Position numbers and translations under genes: made by a program
Assembly: GCA_003150225.1 (NCBI GenBank)
Contig: QAND01000030.1
Coordinates: 1 to 61,021, forward strand
Source: Bacillota bacterium
GTDB lineage: Bacteria > Bacillota > Clostridia > Christensenellales > QAND01
Reading direction: 5' to 3'
DNA: 61,021 nucleotides
Shown here: in pieces, positions 14,793-61,021 of the stretch
How the letters are laid out: every line of letters starts with the position of its first letter
How positions within the stretch are numbered: position 1 is the first letter of the stretch
The notes under the pieces: model-generated
Databases searched by the model: none
Told to the model about the DNA's origin: nothing
The model's input: only the letters and a program-made list of their open reading frames with translations

Positions 14793-15161
14793 TTATTGCG
14801 CATCGTCGGGCTGACGGGTCATGGTGACCACGCTGCCCGTCTCGGGATTGGTTAGGGTAAGGGTATCCTTGGAAAGGGAATAGGCGCTTTCCTGGCGCTG
14901 AATTTGGCTATCGATGATCAGCTGTATTTCCAGAACACCGGCTTCCTCATCCAAAACATAGCTGGCGGTATAGGGAGCGAGCTTGGGAAGCTCGATTTCC
15001 ACTGTGCCGTCCTTTTGGAAGGTGTAGGAGGCGCCGTTGTTATCGTGAATCCAGCGGCCTACGATGGTAAGAGGTTCTTGGCTGAGGCTGGTAACCACTA
15101 CATAGGCGCCCATGGCTACGATAAGCAGCGCGATAAGCACGATGGCAATCTTTCGAGGCAT
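14793..15161 (-). CDS. Small membrane-anchored protein, lipocalin-like
   Basis: A 122-residue protein with an N-terminal membrane anchor (residues about 5-25) and no lipobox cysteine. The exposed part shows the same strand pattern as its neighbour: GRWIHDNNGASYTF near the start and SKDTLTLTNPETG near the end. A GGAGG-type ribosome site lies before the ATG. First gene of the pair, transcribed away from the virion cassette. Function unknown. Confidence 0.65.
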   Translation of the reverse strand: MPRKIAIVLIALLIVAMGAYVVVTSLSQEPLTIVGRWIHDNNGASYTFQKDGTVEIELPKLAPYTASYVLDEEAGVLEIQLIIDSQIQRQESAYSLSKDTLTLTNPETGSVVTMTRQPDDAQ

Positions 15162-15261
15162 AGGACGCCTCCTTCCTTTGCAAAGGGATTTGTATCATTA
15201 TAGCCAATTCCCCTCCGCCTTGTAAAGCGCCGGAAGGGAATGGGGCTGTTTTCTGATCCAT

Positions 15262-15326
15262 TTGACGCTTTTGTGAAAGCGCTATGTCACAAAAGCGTTG
15301 GCAGTATGAAGCAATCCCCATGCTAG
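15262..15326 (+). promoter_or_regulatory. Inverted-repeat operator and promoter of the virion cassette
   Basis: A perfect 12-base inverted repeat, ACGCTTTTGTGA and TCACAAAAGCGT, with a 10-base centre lies at 15265-15298. It is followed immediately by a candidate promoter, TTGGCA (15298-15303), 17 bases, TGCTAG (15321-15326). The repeat touches the -35 element, which suits a repressor or activator site. This is the only obvious promoter for the ten following genes. Confidence 0.55.
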
Positions 15327-15357
15327 GCTTCCTCTATGGGAGAAAGGGGATGGAGGA

Positions 15358-15936
15358 ATGAACCAGCGGCAAAAGGAGCTTTGCCGGTTGTTGCAGAAAG
15401 GATTGACCCTTGAGGAGGCCGGAACACGGTGCGGGTACCGGCCGGGCTATTTCCGCAAACTCCTGCGTATCCCGGAGGTGCGGGAGGCTCTGGAGGTGGG
15501 CAGCCGGCCGGTCCTTGGCCATGGGCCGGACCACGTTCTGCTTTTGTACGAGCGGATCGCCTTCAGCGACGTCAAGGACTTTCTGCGTTTCGGTACCCGG
15601 GAAGAGGAAGGGAAACGAGTGAGCTATACCGAGCTTCGGGAGGATCAGGAGGTGGATGGCCAGCTTGTGGAGGAGATCGTCATCTCCAGTAGGGGGATTC
15701 CTCGGATAAAGCTGGCGGATCGGATGAAAGCCCTGGAAAAGCTGGAACGGTATTTTGATCTGTTTCCCGATACCTACCGCCGGGCTTTGATGGAGCGAAA
15801 GCTGGAGCTGATGGAGCGGGAAGAACGGGTGATTGAGGTGCTAAGCGATATTCCGCGTCCGCAGGAGGAAAGGGGAATGGAGGAAGAGGCACCTTTGGAA
15901 ATGGAATGGAGCGGGGGAGGATGCACGGATGGCTAG
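15358..15936 (+). CDS. Phage terminase small subunit
   Basis: A 192-residue protein. A helix-turn-helix at residues about 5-45 (LLQKGLTLEEAGTRCGYRPGYFRKLL) would recognise the packaging site. The middle and C-terminal helices (LADRMKALEKLERYFDLF, then a Glu/Arg-rich helix) match the oligomerisation part of small terminases. GGAGG precedes the ATG, and the 3' end overlaps the large terminase gene by 8 bases. First gene of the virion cassette. The family call rests on the HTH, length and position. Confidence 0.8.
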   Translation: MNQRQKELCRLLQKGLTLEEAGTRCGYRPGYFRKLLRIPEVREALEVGSRPVLGHGPDHVLLLYERIAFSDVKDFLRFGTREEEGKRVSYTELREDQEVDGQLVEEIVISSRGIPRIKLADRMKALEKLERYFDLFPDTYRRALMERKLELMEREERVIEVLSDIPRPQEERGMEEEAPLEMEWSGGGCTDG

Positions 15937-17314
15937 GCCCGGCTCCAGCGCGGTGCGGCTCCACTATCATCCCACGGGAAAACAGGCGCTGTTTCACCGC
16001 TCCACAGCGGATGAGGTGCTCTTTGGAGGCGCCGCAGGCGGAGGAAAGACCGCCGCCCTAGCCATGGAGGCCTGTATCCGGTGCCTATCCACTCCCGGCG
16101 TGCAGATGTATCTTTTCCGCCGGACCTACCGGGAGCTGATGGATACTCTGGTGTTACAGTCCCGGCGGTTTATCCCACGGGAGCTGGCGAGGTTTTCCAG
16201 CACCACCATGAGCATGGAGTTCATCAACGGCTCTGCCATGCGGTTTCGCCACTGCAACAACGAGGGGGATCGCTTCAATTATGCCGGGGTGGAGATCCAC
16301 GGCCTATTCATCGACGAGCTGACCCATTTTACCAAGACCATCTATGACTTTTTGAAGACCCGGCTCCGGGCGGAAAAGCGGCTGGGTATCCGCCCGGTGG
16401 TGCGGTGCGCCAGCAACCCTGGCGGCATTGGCCATAGCTGGGTCAAGGAGCGGTTTGTGGATCCGGGGCCGCCCTATGAGCTGCACGAGGAGTATGTTTA
16501 CAGCGAGGCTTTGGGCTATGGCAGGAAGCGGACAGTGCAGTTTATTCCATCGCTGGTTACCGACAATCCCTACATTGGGGAGGACTATGTCTTTGAATTG
16601 GAGGGGAAGCCCAAAGCACTGCGGGAAGCCCTTCTGTTGGGGCGATGGGACGCCTTTGAGGGACAGGTTTTTGACGAGTGGCGAGACCGCCCAGAGGCAT
16701 ACGACACCCATCGTTTTACCCATGTGGTGACGCCCTTCCCCATCCCCTCCTATTTTCGGCGATACCGGGCCTTCGACTTTGGCTATGCCCGGCCCTTTGC
16801 CGTTCTATGGTTTGGAGTGGACAGCGATGGAACGGCCTATCTGTATCGGGAATGGTATGGAGGAAGCGGCAACAACGTGGGAATGCGGCTGCCAGCTTCG
16901 GAGATTGCCAAGGGCATCCGCCGCATCGAGGAGGAGGCGGGAGAGCGGGATGTAGCGGGATTTGCCGATCCCAGCATTTGGGATGGCAGCCGAGGGGAAT
17001 CCATTGCGGAACAAATGGAGCGGGAGGGTGTCTATTTTACCCCGGGGGACAACGCCCGCATCGCTGGGAAGATGCAGATGCACCAGCGGTTAGCCTTTGA
17101 CGCATCCGGCCGGTGCGGGCTCTATGTATTTTCTACCTGCAGGAACTTTATCCGCACTTTGCCAGGGCTGAAATACGACGCGCATCGCCCGGAGGATGTG
17201 GATACCCAAGGAGAGGATCATCTTTACGACGCTGCACGGTACTTTTTGATGTCCCGGCCGGTGGGCCAGAAGCCCAAGGCCATCACAAGGCGGGTGTTTA
17301 ATCCGCTGGAATAA
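15929..17314 (+). CDS. Phage terminase large subunit
   Basis: DNA-packaging motor and headful nuclease, 461 residues. The ATPase has Walker A GGAAGGGKT (residues 33-41) and Walker B GLFIDE (125-130). The RNase H-like nuclease carries candidate acidic residues D283 (AFDFGYA), D347 (FADPSIWD) and D434 (EDHLYDAARY). All motifs are intact and there is no internal stop, so the gene looks functional. It would pump DNA into a prohead through the portal encoded next. Confidence 0.93.
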   Translation: MARPGSSAVRLHYHPTGKQALFHRSTADEVLFGGAAGGGKTAALAMEACIRCLSTPGVQMYLFRRTYRELMDTLVLQSRRFIPRELARFSSTTMSMEFINGSAMRFRHCNNEGDRFNYAGVEIHGLFIDELTHFTKTIYDFLKTRLRAEKRLGIRPVVRCASNPGGIGHSWVKERFVDPGPPYELHEEYVYSEALGYGRKRTVQFIPSLVTDNPYIGEDYVFELEGKPKALREALLLGRWDAFEGQVFDEWRDRPEAYDTHRFTHVVTPFPIPSYFRRYRAFDFGYARPFAVLWFGVDSDGTAYLYREWYGGSGNNVGMRLPASEIAKGIRRIEEEAGERDVAGFADPSIWDGSRGESIAEQMEREGVYFTPGDNARIAGKMQMHQRLAFDASGRCGLYVFSTCRNFIRTLPGLKYDAHRPEDVDTQGEDHLYDAARYFLMSRPVGQKPKAITRRVFNPLE

Positions 17315-17325
17315 GGAGGTTCACC

Positions 17326-18960
17326 ATGAACGACGAATTGCGGGAAAAGGCGCCCCGGCAGGATCAGGAGCTGATTGGCCGGGCCTATGAGCTCTTTGAC
17401 GACTTCTATGCTCAAACTGCCGAGCTTCGTATGAAATGGGAGGAGAACGAGGAACTGTATCGCACCAATCACTGGCGGCGCCAGGGCCAGAGGGACGACG
17501 AACCTCAGCCCGTGAATCCGGTGCTGTTCTCTACCATTGAGAGCATGCTGGCGGATATTATGGACAGCTATCCCCAGCCGGTGGTGCTGGCCCAGGAGGA
17601 GGGGGACGATGCTGTGGCGGAGACCCTATCCCAGGTGGTACGGTACATCCTCAAGCGCCGGCGGTACCGGACGGTATTCCGCAAGAAGGCCCGCCAGGCG
17701 CTAATCAAAGGAACGTCGGTCCAGGAGGTGTTCTGGGATACCGAGCTCTATGGCGGCCTGGGGGATGTGAACATCCGAAGCTGGGATGTAAAGCATTTTT
17801 TATTTGATCCCAAATGTGAGAACTTCCAGGAGGGCCGGGCCTGCTTCAAGTTTGGGTTCTTTACCAAGGAGTTTGTGGCCGACCGATATCCTTTTGCGCT
17901 TTCCATGGTACAGCCCGATACCTACAGCCCCTACGGCGGAGACGGGGACGAGCTGATGATGATGGAATATTGGTATAAGGAGCGGGACAGGGAGGGCGTC
18001 TCTCGGGTTCATATGGCGGTGCTCTGCGGGCACGCCCTTCTGTATGACAGCAAGCGGAGCCGGCCCGAGGGAATGTATGCCCACGGAAAGTATCCATTTG
18101 TAATGGAATCCCTCTATCCCTTGGAGGGGATGCCGGCGGGGCTTTCGGTGGTGGATGTGCTGAAAAACCTACAATTATACGCCGATCAATTGGATCAGAT
18201 CATCCTCAAAAACGCCCTTATGAGCGGGAAGGCCAGGATGCTTGTCAGCCGCAGTGCCGAGGTGGAAGAGGACGCCCTGTTGGATTGGAACCGGGAGGTG
18301 GTACGGGCTTCCCGCATCGATGAGAACAGCCTTCGCTGGATGCAGCCCGCTCCCCTAAATCCTTATGTGGTGACCCACTATGACCGGAAGCTGGACGCCA
18401 TTAAGGAGGAGAGCGGCCAGACCATGTTTGCCCGAGGGGAGACGGGAAAAGGGGTTACGGCGGCCACCTCTATCCTGGCCCTTCAAGAGGCGGGAAACAA
18501 GCGAAGCCGTCTTATCATTGAGCAGATGTACGATGGCTTTGAGCAGCTCGTTCGGATGGTCATCGACGTCATCGGGGAGTGCTACGATGAGGAGCGGTAT
18601 TTCCGTATTCGGGGGGAGGGAAGCGATGAGACGGTGGCCCTTTCCTCCCAGATGCTCACCCGGGATTATGGTGAGGGTGAGGGGTACATCGAGTTTGACG
18701 TGTCGGTGGAGGTGGAAAAGCAGTCCCCTTACCGCAGCGTGTATCAGAACGAGCTGGCGCTTCAACTCTTGGCGGCAGGAGTCATCGAGCGGGAGGAATG
18801 CCTTGCCATGATGTCATTTGTGGGCAAGGAAAAGGCTATGGCCAGCCTCATGGAGAAGCGGAACCGGGCGCGAATGGAGGCGTTGGCGTCTGGGTATGAA
18901 ATGGGTCTTTCCCAGCAGGAAGATGAAATGCCATCGGGAATGAAACTCCCTATGATATAG
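17326..18960 (+). CDS. Phage portal protein (P22-like superfamily)
   Basis: A 544-residue portal, the dodecameric ring at the capsid vertex. It is rich in alpha-helix, with an acidic N-terminal region and repeated conserved segments: PVNPVLFSTIESMLADIMDSYPQ (near 62-84), the middle ALIKGTSVQEVFW and DVKHFLFDP, and the late GVTAATSILALQEAGNKRSR helix. It starts 11 bases after the large terminase stop with AAGGAGG upstream. Length and position fit short-tailed phage portals. Confidence 0.85.
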   Translation: MNDELREKAPRQDQELIGRAYELFDDFYAQTAELRMKWEENEELYRTNHWRRQGQRDDEPQPVNPVLFSTIESMLADIMDSYPQPVVLAQEEGDDAVAETLSQVVRYILKRRRYRTVFRKKARQALIKGTSVQEVFWDTELYGGLGDVNIRSWDVKHFLFDPKCENFQEGRACFKFGFFTKEFVADRYPFALSMVQPDTYSPYGGDGDELMMMEYWYKERDREGVSRVHMAVLCGHALLYDSKRSRPEGMYAHGKYPFVMESLYPLEGMPAGLSVVDVLKNLQLYADQLDQIILKNALMSGKARMLVSRSAEVEEDALLDWNREVVRASRIDENSLRWMQPAPLNPYVVTHYDRKLDAIKEESGQTMFARGETGKGVTAATSILALQEAGNKRSRLIIEQMYDGFEQLVRMVIDVIGECYDEERYFRIRGEGSDETVALSSQMLTRDYGEGEGYIEFDVSVEVEKQSPYRSVYQNELALQLLAAGVIEREECLAMMSFVGKEKAMASLMEKRNRARMEALASGYEMGLSQQEDEMPSGMKLPMI

Positions 18961-18991
18961 GGTAGGCGGAACAATCGAAGGAGGAATTGCC

Positions 18992-19618
18992 ATGGAAACG
19001 GTCGATATGGAGTTTGTGGACGACGCACAGGAACAACGGACGGAACCGGTTTTGGAGGAGTCCCAAGAGGGGTTCTATAAAAGCCAGAAGGAGGTAGACC
19101 GGGCCTTTGCACTCCGGCTGGCCGCCGAACGGAAAAAGTGGGAACGGGAGCGGCTGGCCGCAGAGCCTTCTGCCAGCGGAGCGGAGAATCTGGAATTGAA
19201 TCGCAATGAGGCACCTACGGGCGAGGAAATGGAACCCGACGCCGGGGAGATGGACCTCATGGAGCAGAAGCGGTTTCTCATGAGCGTGGTGGAGGCAGAG
19301 GGGGAGATTCAGCGAGAGGATCCTTACTTTGACATGGAACAGGAGATCCGGCGAAACCCCATGTTTGCTCTGATGATTGCAAACGGCTATGATCCCCGGC
19401 GGGTCTATGAGTTCTTCTACCCCATCCGGGCCCGGGGAAACCTAAAAAAAGCGGTGGAGCGGGAGGTTATGGATCGCATCCGCCTGCGCAACCGCCGTCC
19501 TCTTACCATGGCCAGCCCCAACGCCGCCATGAACGTCCGGGACGTTTCCCGGATGAGCGACGAGGAGATCGGGCGCATCGACGCCCGGGTGAAGCGGGGG
19601 GAGCGGGTTCGGCTTTAG
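18992..19618 (+). CDS. Scaffolding-like protein of the virion cassette
   Basis: A 208-residue, highly charged, mostly helical protein directly before the coat gene, the usual place for a scaffold. The N-terminal two thirds are acidic and low-complexity (Glu-rich around residues 1-110). The C-terminal third is basic (LKKAVEREVMDRIRLRNRR, then RVKRGERVRL), which suits coat binding as in known scaffolds. No sequence family is recognised; the role is inferred from composition and position. Confidence 0.65.
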   Translation: METVDMEFVDDAQEQRTEPVLEESQEGFYKSQKEVDRAFALRLAAERKKWERERLAAEPSASGAENLELNRNEAPTGEEMEPDAGEMDLMEQKRFLMSVVEAEGEIQREDPYFDMEQEIRRNPMFALMIANGYDPRRVYEFFYPIRARGNLKKAVEREVMDRIRLRNRRPLTMASPNAAMNVRDVSRMSDEEIGRIDARVKRGERVRL

Positions 19619-19660
19619 CCGGATCCGAAGCCTCCTAGGAAATTTTGAGGAGGAATGACT

Positions 19661-20860
19661 GTGGCGCTTCAAACCAACTTAACCACCAGTGCTGCCATCA
19701 GCAGCACCATGCAGACCTATTATGATAAAAAATTGCTCATCAATGCCAAGCCCAACCTGGTGCATCAGTCCTTTGGCCAGAAGGTGGTGCTGCCCAAGAA
19801 TGCCGGAAAGTCCATTACCTTCCGGAAATGGACTCCGTTTCCTGCTCTGACCACCCCCCTGATCGAGGGAACCGTGCCCGACGGCCAGTCCTTGGAGATG
19901 ACCAACGTGCCTGCTGCTATCGATCAATATGGCGGGTATGTGGCGGTTTCCGACCTTTTGGATTTGACCGCTCTAGACCCGGTGATCAACGACAGCGTGG
20001 AACTGATGGGGGATCAGGGCGGCCTGACGGTGGACCAGATTGTCCGGGACGTACTGGCCGGCGGCACCAACGTCCAGTTTGCCGATGATAAGACCCAGCG
20101 TTTGGAGCTGGGATATGTGGATGAAAACGGCAAAATGGGGGGCGTTCTGACGGTAGATGAGATCCGGAAAGCCGTTCGTACCCTGAAGAAAAACCGGGCT
20201 CCTCAGTTCGTCCGAGGCGGCAAGGGGTATTATGTGGCCATCGTGGGGCCTGAGACCACCTATGACCTGCAGAGCGATCCCATGTGGCAGGATGTTTCCA
20301 AATATGCCGGTGGGGAACAGATCTTTGAAGGGGAGATCGGGAAGCTTTTTGGCGTGGTGTTTGTGGAATCCAGCCATGCCATCATCAAGCAGCCTTCTCC
20401 TCTGCTTCAAAGCGCCCCTGCTATGCGATTTGAAAGCATGACCAACGGCGTATGCAATGTGGATTGCAGCATCCGGGCGGATGAGGTGGCAAAGCTGATC
20501 AACCGGACCGTCACGGTGGGGAACCATGTGAGCACCATCACCAACTGCAATACCTCGGAAAAACGGATCAACCTGGCGGACACCAGCCTTACCATCGAGA
20601 CTCCCGGAGTCATTTATGACGGGGATGCCGGCCTAGGCGGCGCTACCATCAGCAATACCCTGGTATTTGGCAAGAATGCCTATGGCGTCATTGATATCGA
20701 GGGGGGCAACCTTCGGACCATCATTAAGCCCAAGGGCAGCGCCGGTACCGCTGATCCTCTGGATCAGATCTCTACTGTGGGCTGGAAGGTGGATGGGTTT
20801 GCCGCTAAGATTTTGCAGCCCCTATGGATGGTGCGCATTGAACACGCTGTAACCGACTGA
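19661..20860 (+). CDS. Major capsid protein, N4gp56 family
   Basis: A 399-residue coat protein. The N-terminal segment (TTSAAISSTMQTYYDKKLL, FGQKVVLPKNAGKSITFRKWTPFP) and AIDQYGGYVAVSDLLDLTALDPVI match the N4gp56-type HK97-fold major capsid family. GTG at 19661 is preferred: AGGAGG is 7 bases upstream, whereas the ATG at 19655 is only 1 base from it. The gene is intact. A strong hairpin follows it, which may set coat protein apart in expression level. Confidence 0.88.
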   Translation: MALQTNLTTSAAISSTMQTYYDKKLLINAKPNLVHQSFGQKVVLPKNAGKSITFRKWTPFPALTTPLIEGTVPDGQSLEMTNVPAAIDQYGGYVAVSDLLDLTALDPVINDSVELMGDQGGLTVDQIVRDVLAGGTNVQFADDKTQRLELGYVDENGKMGGVLTVDEIRKAVRTLKKNRAPQFVRGGKGYYVAIVGPETTYDLQSDPMWQDVSKYAGGEQIFEGEIGKLFGVVFVESSHAIIKQPSPLLQSAPAMRFESMTNGVCNVDCSIRADEVAKLINRTVTVGNHVSTITNCNTSEKRINLADTSLTIETPGVIYDGDAGLGGATISNTLVFGKNAYGVIDIEGGNLRTIIKPKGSAGTADPLDQISTVGWKVDGFAAKILQPLWMVRIEHAVTD

Positions 20861-20875
20861 TCCAATTTGGGAGAA

Positions 20876-20894
20876 CCCCGGCCTTTGGCCGGGG
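20876..20894 (+). terminator. Hairpin after the capsid gene
   Basis: Perfect stem CCCCGGCC-ttt-GGCCGGGG without a clean T-run. It may stabilise the coat mRNA or attenuate read-through into the connector genes. Confidence 0.5.
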
Positions 20895-20919
20895 AGTCTT
20901 CCCCTAAGGAGGAATCCAT

Positions 20920-21171
20920 ATGAACGTTAATACCACCAAATCTTTGGGGAAAAAGATACTGACCGAGGCTGAGATGGACGCGCTTTCCGCCCGGTGCGGG
21001 GAGAAGCTGGCGGGCTATCCTAAAGTCCGGGTGCGTATTCCGCTGGCGCCTGGAGAAGGGGATACTGTGGAGTGCGCTATCAACGGATACAATTTTATTA
21101 TCAAGCGGGGGGTTACCGTAGAGCTGCCCGAGCCGGTGGTTGATCTGTTGAGCAACGCCGGCGTTGTGTGA
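20920..21171 (+). CDS. Small virion-cassette protein, 83 aa
   Basis: An 83-residue protein of unknown function placed between the coat and connector genes. The C-terminal half is beta-rich (KVRVRIPLAPGEGDTVECAI, then NYNFIIKRGVTVELPEPVVDLL-like strands). Small genes at this site of N4gp56-coat phages often encode head decoration or completion proteins, but that is inference. AAGGAGG precedes the ATG. The next gene starts 7 bases after its stop. Confidence 0.65.
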   Translation: MNVNTTKSLGKKILTEAEMDALSARCGEKLAGYPKVRVRIPLAPGEGDTVECAINGYNFIIKRGVTVELPEPVVDLLSNAGVV

Positions 21172-21178
21172 GGGAGCC

Positions 21179-21715
21179 ATGAACGGCCGTGAGCTTGCCA
21201 CCCTGGTGTTGCGCAATATCGGGGAGGATGAGGATACCGTTACCTATGGGGAATACGCCGATCGTATCTATGCGGCGCTGAACGAGGCGTATCAGCAGGC
21301 GTGTGCGTTCCGATACCGGCCTCGAAAGAAGGTGGAGATTCTGCCTCAGGAGGAAAGTGTGATTTCCCTTGATAGTCTGCCGGAGGATTACTATGCGCCC
21401 CATTCCATCACGGATGGCCAGGGCTATGGGGTAATGTTTGCGTGGGAACCCGACGGCCTACGGCTTGGGCGGAAGTGCGATGTGGTTACGCTGGACTATA
21501 TCTACCGGCCTCCGGTGCTGGATGAAGACGTGACGCCGGTGCTACCCCCCGTGTTTCATACGGCTCTTGCGGACTACGCGGCCTTCCGCATCATGATTCC
21601 GGGGGGAAAGCAGCGCCAGGCCCGGGCGGACTTGTTTTATGCCAATTACCAGCGGGTAATGGTTCAGCTTACCCCCATGGGGGACGCTTGCACCTTTGTC
21701 AATCGATACCGATAG
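21179..21715 (+). CDS. Head-completion/connector protein (gp4 position)
   Basis: A 178-residue protein in the position and size class of the P22 gp4-type tail accessory factor that extends the portal. The N-terminal helical bundle (RELATLVLRNIGEDEDTVTY, RIYAALNEAYQQACAFRY) is typical of head-tail adaptor folds. It is followed by beta strands and a C-terminal helix. The ATG at 21179 is supported by GGGAG upstream. Call based on position, size and helical N-terminus. Confidence 0.6.
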   Translation: MNGRELATLVLRNIGEDEDTVTYGEYADRIYAALNEAYQQACAFRYRPRKKVEILPQEESVISLDSLPEDYYAPHSITDGQGYGVMFAWEPDGLRLGRKCDVVTLDYIYRPPVLDEDVTPVLPPVFHTALADYAAFRIMIPGGKQRQARADLFYANYQRVMVQLTPMGDACTFVNRYR

Positions 21716-21727
21716 GAGGAGAATCCT

Positions 21728-23110
21728 ATGGCGGACGCATATATCCTGGACTATTCCCGGTTTTCCGGGGTGGATCAGTCCTTATCCCAGCTGGATACCC
21801 CGCTCCATGCCACCCATGACGCCCAGAATATCACGGTTGCGGGAGGCATTCTTATGACTGCTCCCAATGACGAGGTGGTGTACGATCCACAAAAGGGGCC
21901 GGTTATGAGCATCATTCAGCGGGTTTGCCTGGACGCCGATGAAAAGCCCATCACCGAGCTGTATATCGCCACCGATACCAAGACCTACTGGCTGGATGAG
22001 TCCACCGGCAGCTGGGAGGAGACCCAGATCATCTACGACCAAACCCAGGGACGGTTTGACTATGTGAATTATTCCGTAGGGGATACCTATTACACCATTT
22101 TGGCAAACGGCTGTGAGGAGGTAGGGGTTTGGGATGGAGGCGGGTACTGCGAGAGTTTTGGACCTGAGACGGTATTTTCTAGCGTTTGTCTCCATTATGA
22201 GCGAATTTGGGGCACTGGGAATCCAGCGTACCATCAGCGGGTTTGGTATTCCGACGCCTATGAGGCCAACGACTGGTTTGGGGCGGGTTCCGGCAGCGTG
22301 GACGTATACAGTCCCACCACAGCAAAAACGGTGGCCATCCGAAGCTTATTTAATGAGATTGTGATCTTCAAGGATCGAGAGATCTTCCGGGTATATGGCA
22401 CCTATCCTTCTGAGTTTGGCGTGTCCAAGGTGGCAGGGGATTATGGCCCCGTCAACTGCTTTTCCATCGTATCCGCCATGGATCGGGTCTATTATATGAG
22501 CCGCAACGATGGCATTTGCTACTACGACGGCATGCGGACCCGGCCCTTGGGGGATGAGAAACTCCGCATCTTTTTTGAAAACCCCAACCTATGTCTTGAT
22601 CATTGCTGTGCTGCCGCCCTAGGAAGGAAGATCTACTTTGCGGTTTGTGAGGATGGGGATGGCGTCAACGATGCTCTACTGGAATACGACGTGGGCAAGC
22701 AGACCTATCTCATCCACAGGGGCGTGAACGCCAACTGCTTTCTGGTGGCCGACGGCACAATTCTATATGGCAGCCAGGATGGAAAAATCTACCGCATGGG
22801 CGCCCAAAAAACCGGACCGCGCAAAGCAGCCCATTGGAAAACGCCTGTTCATGATCTGGGAGCGAAATATACCCATAAGACCAGTACCGTGCTCTACGCC
22901 CATGTGCGGGGACAGGGAGAGCTGTCTGTTACAGCGGACTTTGGCGGCAGGGCACGGGAAAAACGGATCGCTCTCAGCGACCAGCTTACCCCGGTGCGCA
23001 TTCCCATCCGCGCTTTGGGGCGAACCGTTAGCTATACCTTCAGCAATGTGGAGGGTTCATCCTTTGAACTGCATGCGCCCCAGGTTGCTATTGAAATAGA
23101 CGAGGATTAG
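21728..23110 (+). CDS. Virion protein in gp10 (DNA-stabilisation) position
   Basis: A 460-residue protein rich in short beta strands and repeated Tyr/Trp-Gly segments (TDTKTYWLDESTGSWEE, YYTILANGCEEVGVWDGGGY, KDREIFRVYGTYPSEFGV, GDGVNDALLEYDVGKQTYL), suggesting a beta-propeller. P22 gp10, a propeller of about 470 residues that plugs the portal, occupies the same gene position. The similarity is in order, length and predicted fold, not in recognised motifs. GGAGG precedes the ATG. Confidence 0.55.
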   Translation: MADAYILDYSRFSGVDQSLSQLDTPLHATHDAQNITVAGGILMTAPNDEVVYDPQKGPVMSIIQRVCLDADEKPITELYIATDTKTYWLDESTGSWEETQIIYDQTQGRFDYVNYSVGDTYYTILANGCEEVGVWDGGGYCESFGPETVFSSVCLHYERIWGTGNPAYHQRVWYSDAYEANDWFGAGSGSVDVYSPTTAKTVAIRSLFNEIVIFKDREIFRVYGTYPSEFGVSKVAGDYGPVNCFSIVSAMDRVYYMSRNDGICYYDGMRTRPLGDEKLRIFFENPNLCLDHCCAAALGRKIYFAVCEDGDGVNDALLEYDVGKQTYLIHRGVNANCFLVADGTILYGSQDGKIYRMGAQKTGPRKAAHWKTPVHDLGAKYTHKTSTVLYAHVRGQGELSVTADFGGRAREKRIALSDQLTPVRIPIRALGRTVSYTFSNVEGSSFELHAPQVAIEIDED

Positions 23111-23123
23111 GAGAGGAGGTCCT

Positions 23124-24542
23124 ATGAGCGGATTTATCATTCCCAACCGAAATGTAAAGGGCTTGCCCAACAATGTGTTGGGATATGGCCAGGGATTTAC
23201 CTTTACCAGCACGGCGGGGTATCAGCGGATCACGGATTTTTCCGATCTCGCTCTCAAGACCCTCAATGACCAACTGGAGCAGCTTTGGGTAAGAACCCAG
23301 AGCCGGGATCCCCAGACCGGGGATTACAGCACCACCGCGTTGATGGTGGGGGCGGAGCTGGCCAATCCCCGCATCATGGGACGGGCGATGTTTGCTGGAA
23401 AGCCGCAGGTGCGGTATGTTTCCAGCGCTGGGAATGACAGCAACGACGGTTTAACGGAACAAACGCCATTCTGCAGCATCCTGTGCGCCCTCCAATCCCT
23501 GCCCATGATCTGCGACCAGGGAGCCGTTATCTATTGCGATGCGCCGTCCTCGGGCCGGTATTTTGAGCGTCTTTGGGCCAGCATTCCCTTTTGCGGCGAT
23601 CTAAGGATCGTGGGCCGCCAGCGAGTGACCTTCGTGGGCTCCATTCGCTTTGGACCGGCCTTTACTGGAACCATAGCCTTTGAAAATTTTGTGTTCCAGG
23701 GAACCTGTGAGAAACTGGTAGAGGTTGTATCTCCGGGAGCTTCAGTCAGCTTTCATACCTGCGATTTTGTGATGGGGGGCGATGGCTGCCGTGGTATCCT
23801 GGCGCGGGGCGGAAGCGTCGCCGCTTTAGGCTGTGGTTTTTACGGCTGCGGGTTGGGCGCCATAGAGGCTTGGGATATGGGGCGGATCGGCATGCACAAT
23901 TGCGTAGGATCCGGCAATGGATTTGCCCTGAAGGCAGAAGGATGCGCCATTGCGGTTCAGTCTGGAACCCGGCCGGTGGCAGTTACCCCTTCCATTGCTC
24001 AGGAGGGAGGTGTGATCCTGGGAACGGCCACAGCCTCCGCTGGTACGGCTGTAACGCATCTGGGGTACCGGGAGAGGGTGTTTTCCTCTACTGCTACCAT
24101 GAGCGCGTTGGATCTGGAGTTCTTAGAGGACCCCTCCCCTGCGCAGGGGAAGGACCGGGTGACTGGAAAGGAGTACAAGGGGTATTGGGTGTTCGATTCC
24201 CAGGATGTCATTACGCAGCTTTCGGGGAAGACCCCGGTGGCCGGGAGGATCCAATTAAAGCGAAAACCGGGCGCGGGAACCAAAGACCGGGTAAAGGTGT
24301 ATTTGTATTTACATAGCCATACAGGCCCCATGGGGGACGCCGTGGTAGGCGGTCCTTTGGGCAATGTGGCGTCGCTGGCGCCAGACGAGTCCCTGTGGGC
24401 GCCGGTGACGTCCGCGTCCATTCAGGCCATCCAGAGCGGCTATACCCGGGGATATGCCGTCTATTCGCCCATCAGCGGCGAGGAGTTGGAGTTCTATTCC
24501 CAGGCGGAGTATCCGGCCGATCTTTGGGTGGTGTACCAGTAA
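23124..24542 (+). CDS. Beta-helix tail-spike-like protein
   Basis: A 472-residue structural protein. Residues about 1-90 would attach to the particle. Residue 98 opens a pectate-lyase-like element (YVSSAGNDSNDGL, then TPF) characteristic of right-handed beta-helix proteins. Repeated short rungs follow (FTGTIAFENFVFQGTC, SFHTCDFVMGGDGC, AALGCGFYGCGLG). The C-terminal 150 residues form a separate beta-rich domain. It could be a receptor-binding spike or decoration. No catalytic residues can be named from sequence. Confidence 0.7.
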   Translation: MSGFIIPNRNVKGLPNNVLGYGQGFTFTSTAGYQRITDFSDLALKTLNDQLEQLWVRTQSRDPQTGDYSTTALMVGAELANPRIMGRAMFAGKPQVRYVSSAGNDSNDGLTEQTPFCSILCALQSLPMICDQGAVIYCDAPSSGRYFERLWASIPFCGDLRIVGRQRVTFVGSIRFGPAFTGTIAFENFVFQGTCEKLVEVVSPGASVSFHTCDFVMGGDGCRGILARGGSVAALGCGFYGCGLGAIEAWDMGRIGMHNCVGSGNGFALKAEGCAIAVQSGTRPVAVTPSIAQEGGVILGTATASAGTAVTHLGYRERVFSSTATMSALDLEFLEDPSPAQGKDRVTGKEYKGYWVFDSQDVITQLSGKTPVAGRIQLKRKPGAGTKDRVKVYLYLHSHTGPMGDAVVGGPLGNVASLAPDESLWAPVTSASIQAIQSGYTRGYAVYSPISGEELEFYSQAEYPADLWVVYQ

Positions 24543-24554
24543 GGAGGAGATACC

Positions 24555-25583
24555 ATGGCGTACAGCCAATATTATGGAAAATCCGGTGATTATATCAAAG
24601 AGATACAGAAGCTCCTAAACGATAAGGGGGCGGGGCTATCGGTGGACGGCGTCTGGGGGGATGAAACCGAGCGGGCTTATCAACAGCTGGGAAGCATCAC
24701 GGCCTCCTCCTCTCTTGGGGGATCCTCCGTCAGCACCCGCCAGAACAGCTATGGACTTTCTTATTATGATTATACGGCGCCCAGCGATGCACAGCTGCTG
24801 GAACGGGCGCAGGCCGCCGTCTCGGGGGAATACGACGCTATGCTGGCCGCTGAGGAGGAAAAAGCGCAACGGCTCACCGAGGCCCTTCAACGTTCCATCA
24901 GCGCCTTGGATCCGGCCTATCAGCAGCGCTTGGATCTTCTGGAGGAGCAGTTTAACGAGACCCGGGAGTATCTTGCTAACGATGCTTTGAAGCGGGGAAT
25001 GGGCCGAAGTACCCACTACCTAGGAATGGTGGACAAGGCCAGCGATAAGCACCTTACCATGGTGGATCGGATCAACCAGGAATACCGGGATCAGGTGGAC
25101 GCCATCAATCAGGAGATCTTGGATGTGCAGCGGGACTTGCTTAGCAACAAGGGGATGATCTCTGCCAAGCAGCAGAGCGCTATGCGAAAATACCTGGATC
25201 AGCTGATGGAGGATCGGGATGACCGTATCCTAGCTATGGTAAAGTACAACAACTCGGTGCGGGAGACCGAGCTTGCGTTGGCGGCAAAAGCCTCCAGCTC
25301 CTCCCGGAGCGGGGGCGGACGCAGCAGCGGAAGCAGCGGGAAATCCAGTTCCGGCTATTCCCAGAGTGTGCAGACGGAATGGGCACGGTTAACCAAGCCG
25401 GGCAAGATCGCATTTTTTGACCAGATTGCCGATGAGCTGTACAGCAAAGATCGAAGCCTTTATAGCAAGCTGAAGAACGACGTGGCCAGTTACCGCAAGC
25501 AGGGATATTTTGCAGCGGTAAACAAGGAATATAACTACTACACCGATACGGTGAAACCCTATCGTTATACCGGTCCGCGCTAA
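24555..25583 (+). CDS. Coiled-coil virion protein with peptidoglycan-binding-like domain
   Basis: A 342-residue protein, last in the cassette. Residues about 9-45 (GDYIKEIQKLLNDKGAGLSVDGVWGDET) match the PG_binding_1 helical repeat of cell-wall proteins. Residues about 90-230 form a long charged coiled coil. A Ser/Gly-rich linker follows near 235-260, then a compact C-terminal region. There is no visible lytic active site. It could be a needle, ejection or wall-anchoring protein. GGAGG precedes the ATG. Confidence 0.65.
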   Translation: MAYSQYYGKSGDYIKEIQKLLNDKGAGLSVDGVWGDETERAYQQLGSITASSSLGGSSVSTRQNSYGLSYYDYTAPSDAQLLERAQAAVSGEYDAMLAAEEEKAQRLTEALQRSISALDPAYQQRLDLLEEQFNETREYLANDALKRGMGRSTHYLGMVDKASDKHLTMVDRINQEYRDQVDAINQEILDVQRDLLSNKGMISAKQQSAMRKYLDQLMEDRDDRILAMVKYNNSVRETELALAAKASSSSRSGGGRSSGSSGKSSSGYSQSVQTEWARLTKPGKIAFFDQIADELYSKDRSLYSKLKNDVASYRKQGYFAAVNKEYNYYTDTVKPYRYTGPR

Positions 25584-25645
25584 GAAGCCGTATGCTTTTT
25601 TCCTTTACTGGAAACAATAGGAGAAAAGCGGGAGGGATGATGCGC

Positions 25646-27208
25646 ATGCCTGACTGGGATTGGTTTGGATTTACCCCCAAGGAAGCCTTTTTCTTAGGGG
25701 AGGATGAGGAGGAGCGGAACAACGCCACGGAAGACGGTTATGGCGGAAGCAACGTTCCTCCCAAACTGGATGGCTTTACCCCCACAGAGTCGCTGGAGGA
25801 GAATAAAAAACAGCTGGACGCCTTGTTTCATAAGGAAATCAACATGGACTATATTCGCCGGGAATTTTACTGCGGGAAGATCAAGGTGCTGCTGGCATTT
25901 ATCGATGGCCTGACCAACAGCATGATCGTGGACGATATGCTGCTGCGGCCATTGATTCAGCATCCATGCGAGGGGATAGACGATGCCTTAAGGCGGGTGT
26001 TGCCCATCAATAATATTTCCGTTGCCACCGATGGGAAACAGATGGTGAACTCCATTCTTGAGGGGGACGCTGTGGTGTTCTTTGACGGGGATGCCCGGGC
26101 TATCACCTTGGATGTAAAAAGCTACGACAAGCGTACGGTGGGAGAGACCATCAACGAGAAGGTGGTAAAGGGGCCGCAGCAGGGGTTCGTGGAGAACATG
26201 CGGACCAATATCACCTTGATCCGCAGTATTGTCCGGGTGCCTGACTTGGTGAGCCAAATCATGCCCACCGGTGGAGATAACAATATGAAGTGTGCCGTTA
26301 TGTACCGAAAAGGAGTGGCATCGGAACAGCTGGTACAGCGGGTCATTGAAAAGATAAAGGGTATTAGCGATGTGGGGTTTGTTTTGGGCGGCGGCATGAT
26401 GGAGCAGCTTATGAAGGAGGACCGCCGGTGCATTCTGCCCCGCACCCTTCAGACCGAGCGCCCCGATCGAGCGGCTGCCTATCTGACCCAAGGGCATATT
26501 GCGCTGGTGTGCGACGGTTATCCCTTTGTGATGGTGTTGCCCATTACGTTTTTTTCCTTGATGCAGACCAGCGAGGATTATTTTATCAACCCGGTATTTG
26601 CTACCATTGAGCGGATCATCCGTTACGCGAGCCTCTTTATTTCCATGCTACTTCCGGGGATCTATGTGGCGCTGGTGCTGTTTCACCAAAAGATGCTGCC
26701 CATTGAATTCATCCTTTCCAGCCTGGCAAGCCGGCAGCTCATCGCCCTTCCGGTATTTCTGGAAATTCTACTGATGTCCATCGTTTTTGAGCTGCTGCGG
26801 GAAGCCAGTATCCGGGTGCAATCGGGGATCAACCAAACCCTGGGCATCGTCGGAGGGCTCATTTTAGGGCAGGCGGCGGTGTCGGCCAACCTGGTGAGCC
26901 CCATCGCCATCATCGTGGTGTCCACAGCGGGATTGGCCAGTTTTGCAATTCCGGATTTTTCCCTACAAATGGCTCTGTATTATGTGCGATTTATCTTCCT
27001 GGGCGCTGCGCTACTGGGCGGTTTTTGGGGCATTCTTTTGGTGTTTATTCCGCTCTGCGCGTATTTGTGTTCCATTAAATCCTATGGCGTACCCTATTTT
27101 ACCCCCGTTGCACCCAAGACCCGCTCCAACCGGGATTTGATCATCAAAGGGAACATCACCCGCGGTGGGGATATTCCAGACTATATCCGGGGAGGTGGGA
27201 AAAAATGA
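25646..27208 (+). CDS. Spore germination protein GerA family (A subunit)
   Basis: A subunit of a nutrient germinant receptor in the spore inner membrane, 520 residues. A soluble N-terminal region (about 1-290) is followed by about five membrane helices beginning near FISMLLPGIYVAL. Family segments include LVKGPQQGFVENM-like (VVKGPQQGFVENMRTNITLIR) and PDFSLQMALYYVRF. The ATG at 25646 is favoured because GGAGGG lies 9 bases upstream; two ATGs just before it are too close. The gene begins about 60 bp after the virion cassette, with no obvious promoter. Confidence 0.93.
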   Translation: MPDWDWFGFTPKEAFFLGEDEEERNNATEDGYGGSNVPPKLDGFTPTESLEENKKQLDALFHKEINMDYIRREFYCGKIKVLLAFIDGLTNSMIVDDMLLRPLIQHPCEGIDDALRRVLPINNISVATDGKQMVNSILEGDAVVFFDGDARAITLDVKSYDKRTVGETINEKVVKGPQQGFVENMRTNITLIRSIVRVPDLVSQIMPTGGDNNMKCAVMYRKGVASEQLVQRVIEKIKGISDVGFVLGGGMMEQLMKEDRRCILPRTLQTERPDRAAAYLTQGHIALVCDGYPFVMVLPITFFSLMQTSEDYFINPVFATIERIIRYASLFISMLLPGIYVALVLFHQKMLPIEFILSSLASRQLIALPVFLEILLMSIVFELLREASIRVQSGINQTLGIVGGLILGQAAVSANLVSPIAIIVVSTAGLASFAIPDFSLQMALYYVRFIFLGAALLGGFWGILLVFIPLCAYLCSIKSYGVPYFTPVAPKTRSNRDLIIKGNITRGGDIPDYIRGGGKK

Positions 27209-42913: not shown

Positions 42914-43384
42914 ATGGAGGAGAAGACCAACGTAATGCGTATGCTGGACCAGAAAAAGATTCCCTACCGAGCCCATTACTATGGCGCGGGGGAGGCTCTG
43001 GCCGGCATCCAGGTGGCCCAACTGCTGGGGGAGGATCCGGCCCGGGTGTTCAAAACCCTGGTGACGGTGGGCCATTCCCGGCGAAACTATGTGTTTGTGA
43101 TTCCCGTTGGGGAGGAATTGGATCTGAAAAAGGCGGCGCGGACGGTGGGGGAGAAGGCGATCGAGATGGTGAAGTCCAAGGATCTGTTGTCGCTGACAGG
43201 CTATGTCCATGGAGGATGCTCGCCCATCGGCATGAAGAAGCCCTTTCCTACCATTCTTCATGAGAGCGCACGGGCCTTTGACGCCATCCTGTTCAGTGCA
43301 GGGCGTATTGGCGCCCAGGTGGAGGTATCGCCGGAGGATCTGAAAAGGATGGTCAACTACCGTTTTGCAGACCTGATCAAATAA
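42914..43384 (+). CDS. Cys-tRNA(Pro)/Cys deacylase YbaK/EbsC family
   Basis: A 156-residue trans-editing domain that hydrolyses mischarged aminoacyl-tRNA. Seen: VMRMLDQKKIPYRAHYY, the conserved FKTLVTVGHSRRNYVFVIPVGEELDLKKAA, and GYVHGGCSPIGMKKPFPT. The GGCSPIG motif with its conserved Lys is intact. ATG at 42914 is supported by AGGAGGG. Operon with the preceding GT-C gene (13-base gap). Confidence 0.9.
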   Translation: MEEKTNVMRMLDQKKIPYRAHYYGAGEALAGIQVAQLLGEDPARVFKTLVTVGHSRRNYVFVIPVGEELDLKKAARTVGEKAIEMVKSKDLLSLTGYVHGGCSPIGMKKPFPTILHESARAFDAILFSAGRIGAQVEVSPEDLKRMVNYRFADLIK

Positions 43385-43411
43385 AAAAGCCGCCCATTGG
43401 GCGGCTTTTTT
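43383..43411. terminator. Bidirectional terminator
   Basis: GCCGCCC-att-GGGCGGC with A6 and T6 flanks, between the YbaK gene and the convergent csp gene. Confidence 0.9.
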
Positions 43412-43425
43412 GCTGGCTTTATCGA

Positions 43426-43638
43426 TCAGGCGAAGCAGACGTTCACTGCCCGAAGCTTGCGGCTGTTTTTGGGGTCGGTCTCCGTGTCGTATGTAACCTT
43501 CTGGCCTTCTTGCAGGGATTTGAACCCATCGGCCTGGATGGCGGAAAAGTGCACAAACACATCGTCGCCGCCGTTGTCGTTGGAGATAAAGCCGAAGCCC
43601 TTCGCCTCATTGAACCATTTTACAGTACCGTTATTCAT
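43426..43638 (-). CDS. Cold-shock protein, CspA family
   Basis: A 70-residue OB-fold RNA chaperone. RNP motifs are visible: [11 protein letters not shown] and DVFVHFSAI, with the N-terminal [11 protein letters not shown]. It binds single-stranded RNA and DNA. AGGAGGT lies before the ATG. A long structured hairpin stands in the 5' leader, as expected for a temperature-controlled mRNA. Confidence 0.94.
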
Positions 43639-43678
43639 AACCAGTACCTCCTAAAAGATGTTATTCAAAATCGTGCAT

Positions 43679-43728
43679 ATAAAAACCGCTGGCGCAAGTC
43701 AAAATGAAATTGACTTACGGCCAGCGGC
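43679..43728 (-). promoter_or_regulatory. Leader hairpin upstream of csp
   Basis: On the minus strand a stem of about 17 bp (CCGCTGGC and GTAAGTCAA against TTGACTTGC and GCCAGCGG), with one bulge and a 7-base loop, is followed by TTTTTATA. It lies about 45 bases before the start codon, so it may be an attenuator or a cold-responsive leader element. Confidence 0.55.
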
Positions 43729-43840
43729 AATCAATGTACATTTAGAATACGATTTCACTATACACTGCCGGCGAAGGAATAGCAAGCATTGTTTTTGCGG
43801 AAATCTGCCGATTGTAAGGGGATGATGGAAACTGCCTCCA

Positions 43841-60503: not shown

Positions 60504-60546
60504 AGGGAACAAAAAACGGGCGGTATCGCCTTGGGAGGAAATGCAG

Positions 60547-61021
60547 ATGGAAAAGATCCGCTTGGGAATCGTAGGATATGGAAACATCGGGCGGGGCGTT
60601 GCCCAGGCCATTCGGATGAATCCTGATATGGAACTGGTGGCTTTCTTCAGCCGGCGGGATCCGGCGTTGGTCGAATTGGATCCTGCTGATGCCGGTACGC
60701 CAGTTTATGCTGCAAAAGACGCGGCCAACTATCAAGATCAGATTGACGTCATGCTGCTGTGCGGCGGCAGCGCCACCGATCTGCCCCAGCAGGGCCCGGA
60801 ATACGCCAAACTGTTCCACACCGTGGACAGCTTTGACACCCATGCAAGGATTCCGGAGTATTTTGCGGCCATGGATCAAGCGGCCCGGGAGAGCGGACAC
60901 CTGAACCTGATCTCCTGTGGCTGGGATCCCGGCCTTTTCTCCATGATCCGGTTGCTGGCGGGAGCTTGCTTACCCCAGGGAAATGACTACACCTTCTGGG
61001 GAGACGGGGTAAGCCAGGGCC
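60547..61021 (+). CDS. ddh: meso-Diaminopimelate D-dehydrogenase, 5' part
   Basis: Cut by the window end; 158 codons are present. The NADPH-binding start is IRLGIVGYGNIGRGVAQAI. The typical SRRDP, LCGGSATDLPQQGPEYA, VDSFDTHARIPEYF and SCGWDPGLFSMIRLLA segments follow. It converts tetrahydrodipicolinate to meso-diaminopimelate in one step for lysine and peptidoglycan. ATG at 60547 is chosen because GGGAGG lies 8 bases upstream. Confidence 0.93.
   Translation, partial: MEKIRLGIVGYGNIGRGVAQAIRMNPDMELVAFFSRRDPALVELDPADAGTPVYAAKDAANYQDQIDVMLLCGGSATDLPQQGPEYAKLFHTVDSFDTHARIPEYFAAMDQAARESGHLNLISCGWDPGLFSMIRLLAGACLPQGNDYTFWGDGVSQG

Follow-up and report, generated by a model that had tools for sequence, protein, structure and literature searches.

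Intact virion cassette of short-tailed-phage type, probably a gene transfer agent cluster, in the chromosome of a Clostridia bacterium

Gene transfer agents (GTAs) are known at the gene level from few lineages. RcGTA, the type of the alphaproteobacterial GTAs, has a siphovirus-type head and tail, and PBSX of Bacillus subtilis is long-tailed with a prophage-like gene set. The closest published case to the locus described here is FpGTA of Faecalibacterium, a ten-ORF podovirus-like GTA (Nat Commun 2026, PMC12946183). FpGTA I comprises ten ORFs in 10.5 kb and forms ~40-nm capsids in which 8.4-8.9 kb of host DNA are packaged, and a second locus carries fibre and lysis genes (PMC12946183). The same report places 3 of 25 GTA-like events in Christensenellaceae, and in its accessible text we found none of the genes behind this packaging named. 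Beyond it, nothing directly relevant was found in the GTA literature on Clostridia or Christensenella, preprints being outside the scope of this search.

A preliminary description had proposed an isolated, intact ten-gene virion cassette of short-tailed-phage type in a 61,021-nucleotide stretch of a Bacillota genome (the whole of which is called the window here). Family searches, ORF inspection and the chromosomal genes that neighbour the cassette on the window all bear this out. Indeed, positions 15358-25583 are filled by ten co-directional ORFs, with ten out of ten frames intact:

15358..15936, + strand: TerS, small terminase (PF03592, phrog_2606; alignable with its counterparts at the related loci L081 and L084)
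15929..17314, + strand: TerL, large terminase (Pfam and PHROG searches)
17326..18960, + strand: portal of the P22/SU10 type (PF16510, PF23899, phrog_156)
18992..19618, + strand: scaffold-position protein (phrog_13908, function unknown, E 3.6e-5; position)
19655..20860, + strand: major coat, N4gp56 family, long form (TIGR04387, E 3e-76)
20920..21171, + strand: small 83-aa protein between coat and adaptor (weak PHROG matches of unknown function)
21164..21715, + strand: adaptor, SU10 adaptor family (PF24175, E 9.3e-11)
21728..23110, + strand: tail nozzle with a P22 gp10/T7 gp12-like fold (structure model and structure matches)
23124..24542, + strand: spike with a beta-helix core, a putative receptor-binding or depolymerase protein (moderate structure model)
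24555..25583, + strand: DUF7934 protein, the last cassette gene (PF25588, E 1.4e-18; alignment)

The N-terminal stretch of TerS contains a candidate helix-turn-helix, as judged by eye. In TerL, the GGAxGGGK ATP-binding loop (residues 33-40) and the acidic residues D283 and D430 are invariant across 21 sequences. When the records of 80 related loci and the window were clustered, the scaffold-position protein cluster covered 75 of the 81 records and that of the small 83-aa protein 64. For the nozzle, which occupies the gp10 position, the structure model is confident (mean pLDDT 89.3), and the solved structures that match it best are short-tailed-phage tails, including P22 and T7 tail complex chains; the nozzle was also touched by an amidase PHROG (1.7e-9). 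The spike gave a moderate model (mean pLDDT 63) with a beta-helix core resembling pectate lyases and phage tailspikes, while the DUF7934 protein carries a weak N-terminal peptidoglycan-binding-like segment together with weak endolysin PHROG matches. Pfam and PHROG searches of the cassette returned no match to integrase, replication, holin or complete endolysin genes.

By description, the cassette resembles FpGTA in its ~10 kb, its ten ORFs and its content of TerS, TerL, portal, scaffold, coat and short-tail-type proteins, and also in the chromosome of an anaerobic gut Bacillota as its setting, the lack of replication genes and the placement of parts in two loci (PMC12946183). It differs in belonging to another host group, and the packaging of host DNA that has been seen for FpGTA is a prediction for the cassette. 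In addition, the TerS of the window seems, by eye, to bear a helix-turn-helix, whereas that of FpGTA is reportedly without an obvious DNA-binding domain (PMC12946183). Faecalibacterium was not named among the 120 matches listed per database search, most of which are nameless. With the alphaproteobacterial GTAs of the RcGTA type the cassette family shares that it is endogenised, often dispersed and co-diverging with its hosts (PMC9662315), and it differs from RcGTA in its short-tailed P22/SU10-like proteins and N4gp56 coat. The type of portal, adaptor and nozzle is also that of P22, SU10 and the Bacillus podophages Page and Pony, and the coats of the Page/Pony group are 37% identical over 76% of the window coat. 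However, these are complete phages (the Page/Pony records are ~40 kb), whereas the cassette is without replication, lysogeny or complete lysis genes.

We consider it likely that the cassette encodes the virion and packaging proteins of a GTA that descends from a short-tailed (P22/SU10-like) phage and has been retained by the host lineage. That it works like a GTA is well supported; that it is a GTA is probable, if unproven. In such a GTA, TerS and TerL would load host DNA via the portal into a small head made of the N4gp56 coat, the adaptor and nozzle would seal this head and form a short tail, and receptor binding and cell-wall passage would fall to the spike and the DUF7934 protein. Particles would be produced, filled by headful packaging of random host DNA and delivered to recipients, with lysis presumably supplied by genes elsewhere. 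A published list names six defining features of GTAs and accepts sequence similarity for phage-derived proteins (PMC9662315), and, judged from sequence, three of the six appear to be present here. Proteins that derive from tailed phages and would form particles are indicated by the protein families and the nozzle fold; full endogenisation, often at several loci, is seen as one locus in the window and several in relatives; and vertical inheritance with co-diversification is seen for the family, with fewer common splits in the window-type set (below). The remaining features of that list are the packaging of mostly random host DNA, a head too small for the element's own genome, and delivery to cells (PMC9662315).

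The preliminary description had suggested examining related genomes for synteny of degV, cassette and ger operon. In genome G001 (record 'Clostridiales bacterium isolate SIG367') all ten genes are present at locus L081 with 53-82% identity to those of the window, flanked by the same lipoprotein genes and by the same ger operon and cyclase gene; DegV was not found at this locus. Farther out on either side, matches between G001 and the window follow one another in the same order (window 83 to ~52319), interrupted by some genes without a match. Three genomes of the family of G001 were compared; in one of them, G014, a lipoprotein gene is immediately followed by gerA, and neither G013 nor G014, both draft assemblies, carries coat or TerL. 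Since G013 and G014 are the sisters of G001 in the RpoB tree and the genomes closest to it, the empty site implies one of two events: acquisition of the locus by an ancestor shared by the window and G001, or its loss on the branch of G013 and G014. Gain or loss has thus occurred within the family of G001 and G014, and the concern that orthologous loci would lack the cassette is borne out for G014 and not for G001.

The cassette abuts a germination operon, and between the two we read by eye, against the sigma-F consensus, the following element:

25590..25618, + strand: sigma-F-like promoter GTATG-N15-GGAAACAAT in front of gerA

A similar element with a 14-base spacer lies between cassette and gerA in L081, which makes a separate forespore promoter for the ger operon probable. 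This bears on whether the cassette encodes a domesticated particle with some other task, either a PBSX-like or bacteriocin-like killer that packages without delivering DNA, or a developmental particle. The spike and wall-binding-type proteins would suit such a particle, as would the position next to the germination operon in the window lineage, and DNA delivery in the cassette family is a prediction. PBSX, which is likewise a chromosomally fixed phage-derived particle in a Gram-positive host, differs in acting as a tailocin without DNA injection and provides the precedent (PMC12946183). Nevertheless, we regard another task as unlikely, because TerL, TerS and portal are conserved together with the coat and would be superfluous for a pure killer, and because the ger operon looks to be under a promoter of its own and the cassette occupies other sites in relatives. 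For these last two reasons a functional link to sporulation is likewise unsupported.

Between the window and L081, nine cassette genes gave dN values of 0.145-0.49 and saturated dS values of 1.36-3.08, with ratios of at most 0.24; for DUF7934, dN was 0.25 and dS not computable. The values of GerA, GerB, GerC and the cyclase, with dS again saturated, were comparable. Among nine closer pairs of relatives, dN/dS of cassette genes was mostly 0.05-0.3 and reached 0.43 at its highest, like that of flanking genes, so the low ratios expected under purifying selection were found at both distances. Neither relaxed selection nor broken genes, as a decaying prophage would show, were found in the window or L081; isolated split genes occur in relatives (gp10 in L090 and DUF7934 in L149).

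We also compared the divergence of the family with that of its hosts. Pairwise distances correlated with those of RpoB for coat (r 0.69, 30 genomes), TerL (0.65, 30 genomes), portal (0.94, 18 genomes) and nozzle (0.78, 28 genomes), and none of these values was reached in 2000 permutations each. A combined coat, TerL and nozzle (gp10) tree had 23 of 26 splits in common with the RpoB tree for 29 genomes and 25 of 36 for 39 genomes, against at most 3 in 500 label shuffles each. For the 27 genomes of three groups of relatives, A to C, the coat alone shared 17/24 splits and TerL alone 15/24, and the nozzle alone shared 13/22 (25 of the 27 genomes); the counts vary between runs that include different rows (23/26, 25/36, 17/24). 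The 12 window-type genomes had 4 of 9 splits in common with RpoB and 5 of 9 not. None of 2000 shuffles gave counts as high as those of the single-gene A-C and window-type comparisons. G774 was excluded from the split comparisons owing to its fragmentary RpoB, and the window itself is placed via L081/G001, as its rpoB lies outside the window; the right-most ORF of the window (60541-61020) was considered as rpoB, rejected at 25-28% identity, and enters no tree. Lineage-bound prophages could mimic part of this co-divergence, which is disfavoured by the mostly single copies, the dispersed loci and the lack of nearby integrases.

A trimmed, defective prophage that is still decaying would account for a cassette without integrase, replication or complete lysis genes, for the missing cassette at the orthologous site of G014, and for the prophage-like cluster with a related TerL in another genome (L390 in G771). 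We judge it very unlikely, since ten out of ten frames are intact in both the window and L081 despite saturated synonymous divergence and with low dN, the site is the same in G001, and the family co-diverges with its hosts. The earlier preference for a domesticated, GTA-like cassette over a trimmed prophage is accordingly strengthened by the common place in G001, purifying selection, co-divergence and dispersed loci.

A coat-alignment scan of a species genome collection returned 172 relatives, and the best 80, which were kept, mostly have Clostridia titles, several of them labelled Christensenella or Christensenellaceae. Coat clusters on two short contigs labelled Eggerthellaceae and Atopobiaceae (L094 and L107) are mis-binned or phage. 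Coat matches were present in 56 of 396 whole genomes of the order of G001 and in 54 of 391 of the class; shorter prophage-type coats, present several times in some genomes, are part of these counts. In many related Clostridia homologous clusters sit among housekeeping genes, usually one per genome, and the coat was present once per genome in 12 of 12 (that of G002 appears as two pieces). Gene orders in relatives, obtained with a simple purpose-written gene caller and, for genes of groups A to C, Pfam searches, follow several layouts. In group A the virion genes are all together; in group B coat-DUF7934 and small-adaptor-nozzle are split by other genes, including an EamA transporter gene; and in group C BppU_N, NlpC/P60 and holin genes come after the stretch from coat to DUF7934, and terminase and portal are found at other places. 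The group C arrangement can be set beside the second locus of FpGTA (PMC12946183); for the window type, no second locus with fibre, holin and endolysin genes was found. Phage_holin_4_1 was absent in 4 of 4 window-type genomes searched (6 of 19 positive over all), so that no lysis module was identified in them.

The terminase is often separated from the coat. Among the 52 loci with 5.5 kb or more available upstream of the coat, 29 have TerL co-directional and within 6.5 kb and 23 do not. TerL was present in 28 of 30 coat-bearing genomes, as a single match in 24 of the 28, and, by coordinates and contig extents, in 16 of the 28 it was on a different contig from the coat or separated from it by 18 kb or more (G776 not judged). 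On the single 2.76-Mb contig of G544, for example, the coat lies near 1,909 kb and TerL near 1,638 kb. In G017, which is of the window type, scaffold-coat and small-adaptor-nozzle-spike lie on either side of the cyclase gene in opposite directions, and TerL is on a separate contig. The terminase-portal loci that were examined are surrounded mostly by chromosomal-looking genes. In L485 (G496) and L487 (G469), TerL lies near a PcrA/UvrD-like helicase gene, as judged by eye, which suggests a conserved site for the terminase-portal locus. L347 (G015:C1:266000-285900) is a TerL-portal-nozzle-DUF7934 cluster near NifU/NifS-like genes (DUF7934 match 7.6e-122) in a genome with no N4gp56 coat match, and is possibly a further domesticated type with another capsid. 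DUF7934 proved too narrow as a family marker, being above cut-off in only 4 of 391 class genomes, and a gene labelled as coat in L432 was discarded as a chance match (26% identity, E 9.5e-5).

Phage_integrase (PF00589) matches occur in 23 of 23 genomes searched, yet in all 22 genomes with a matched coat contig (G771 unmatched) the 15 kb to either side of the coat are free of them, the nearest being ~17 kb away in G291; the test covers PF00589 as opposed to serine recombinases or attachment sites, and contig ends limit its reach. The integrase beside virion genes that marks an active prophage was therefore not found as regards PF00589. In a flank census of 115 hand-chosen proteins, from which some neighbours and near-duplicates had been dropped, the commonest 25 of 156 Pfam families include no integrase, with rare integrases possible, and DnaC-like helicase loaders lead the PHROG tally of the same proteins (5 of 115). 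A phage satellite or small active temperate phage at a preferred site, which the filing of related contigs as viral in IMG/VR and an HTH_3 gene beside the cassette in G002 would favour, is the least probable explanation and highly improbable given the lack of Phage_integrase near the coat in 22 of 22 matched genomes (serine recombinases being outside the search), of any replication gene match in the cassette, and of a joint locus for terminase and coat in many genomes.

The relation to phages is nonetheless close. Viral contigs fall within the family in the coat tree and a true prophage branches beside groups A to C, which likely reflects exchange with phages; the window-type, A-C and Monoglobus-type sets are themselves set apart by viral or prophage branches. 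This topology would fit several independent domestications, or a capture by phages. The coats of the IMG/VR records L162, L186, L171, L172 and L184 match those of the chromosomal loci L084, L147, L105, L104 and L127 exactly or almost exactly, and domesticated clusters thus appear to have been filed as viruses, a warning that some 'viral' database contigs are host chromosome. L173, L176-L181, L185, L210 and other viral rows, some of 37-41 kb, are nested within the chromosomal coat clade, which may mean that phages picked up the domesticated coat or never diverged far from it. At L390 (G771:C28:175000-194900), a short N4gp56 coat sits in a prophage-like cluster together with a TerL that shares 64% identity with that of the chromosomal family; G771 carries this second TerL in addition to a split chromosomal set.

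More tentatively, and with appreciable doubt, we propose that a deep ancestor of Christensenellales-type Clostridia domesticated a short-tailed GTA family, which its descendants have inherited since, the terminase-portal and coat-tail parts drifting to separate loci in several lineages. A single origin for the whole class was set aside: Monoglobus-type coats fall in another part of the coat tree with viral clades between, so independent domestications are as likely as one class-wide origin. The cassette family is a candidate source of the GTA-like packaging in Christensenellaceae, and the deep domestication, if true, would supply the missing genes for the DNA packaging seen there in faecal particles. 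If Monoglobus/Ructibacterium-type and Faecalibacterium counterparts are counted in, GTAs would then be a regular presence in gut Clostridia. Host-DNA packaging in faecal particles would gain a genetic basis from an old, large family inherited vertically in gut and rumen Clostridia, and gene flow in uncultured Clostridia would become testable. The novelty that the earlier description attached to a domesticated system is lessened by FpGTA, published in January 2026.

As to regulation of the cassette, one element lies ~60 bp upstream of TerS:

15265..15298, no strand assigned: perfect inverted repeat with 12-bp arms and a 10-bp spacer

This repeat, found once in the window and not at all in 100 shuffles, is possibly an operator; it was sought in L081 and not found there. 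Between 14300 and 25800, sigma-70-type promoters (9, shuffle mean 6.7) and terminators (10, shuffle mean 11.4) were near chance, and given these promoter counts we claim no cassette promoter. Rfam returned nothing up to E 0.5 at 15100-25700. Elsewhere in the window, a cspA thermoregulator match (RF01766, 90.9 bits) at 43381-43793 on the - strand overlaps a 70-aa gene.
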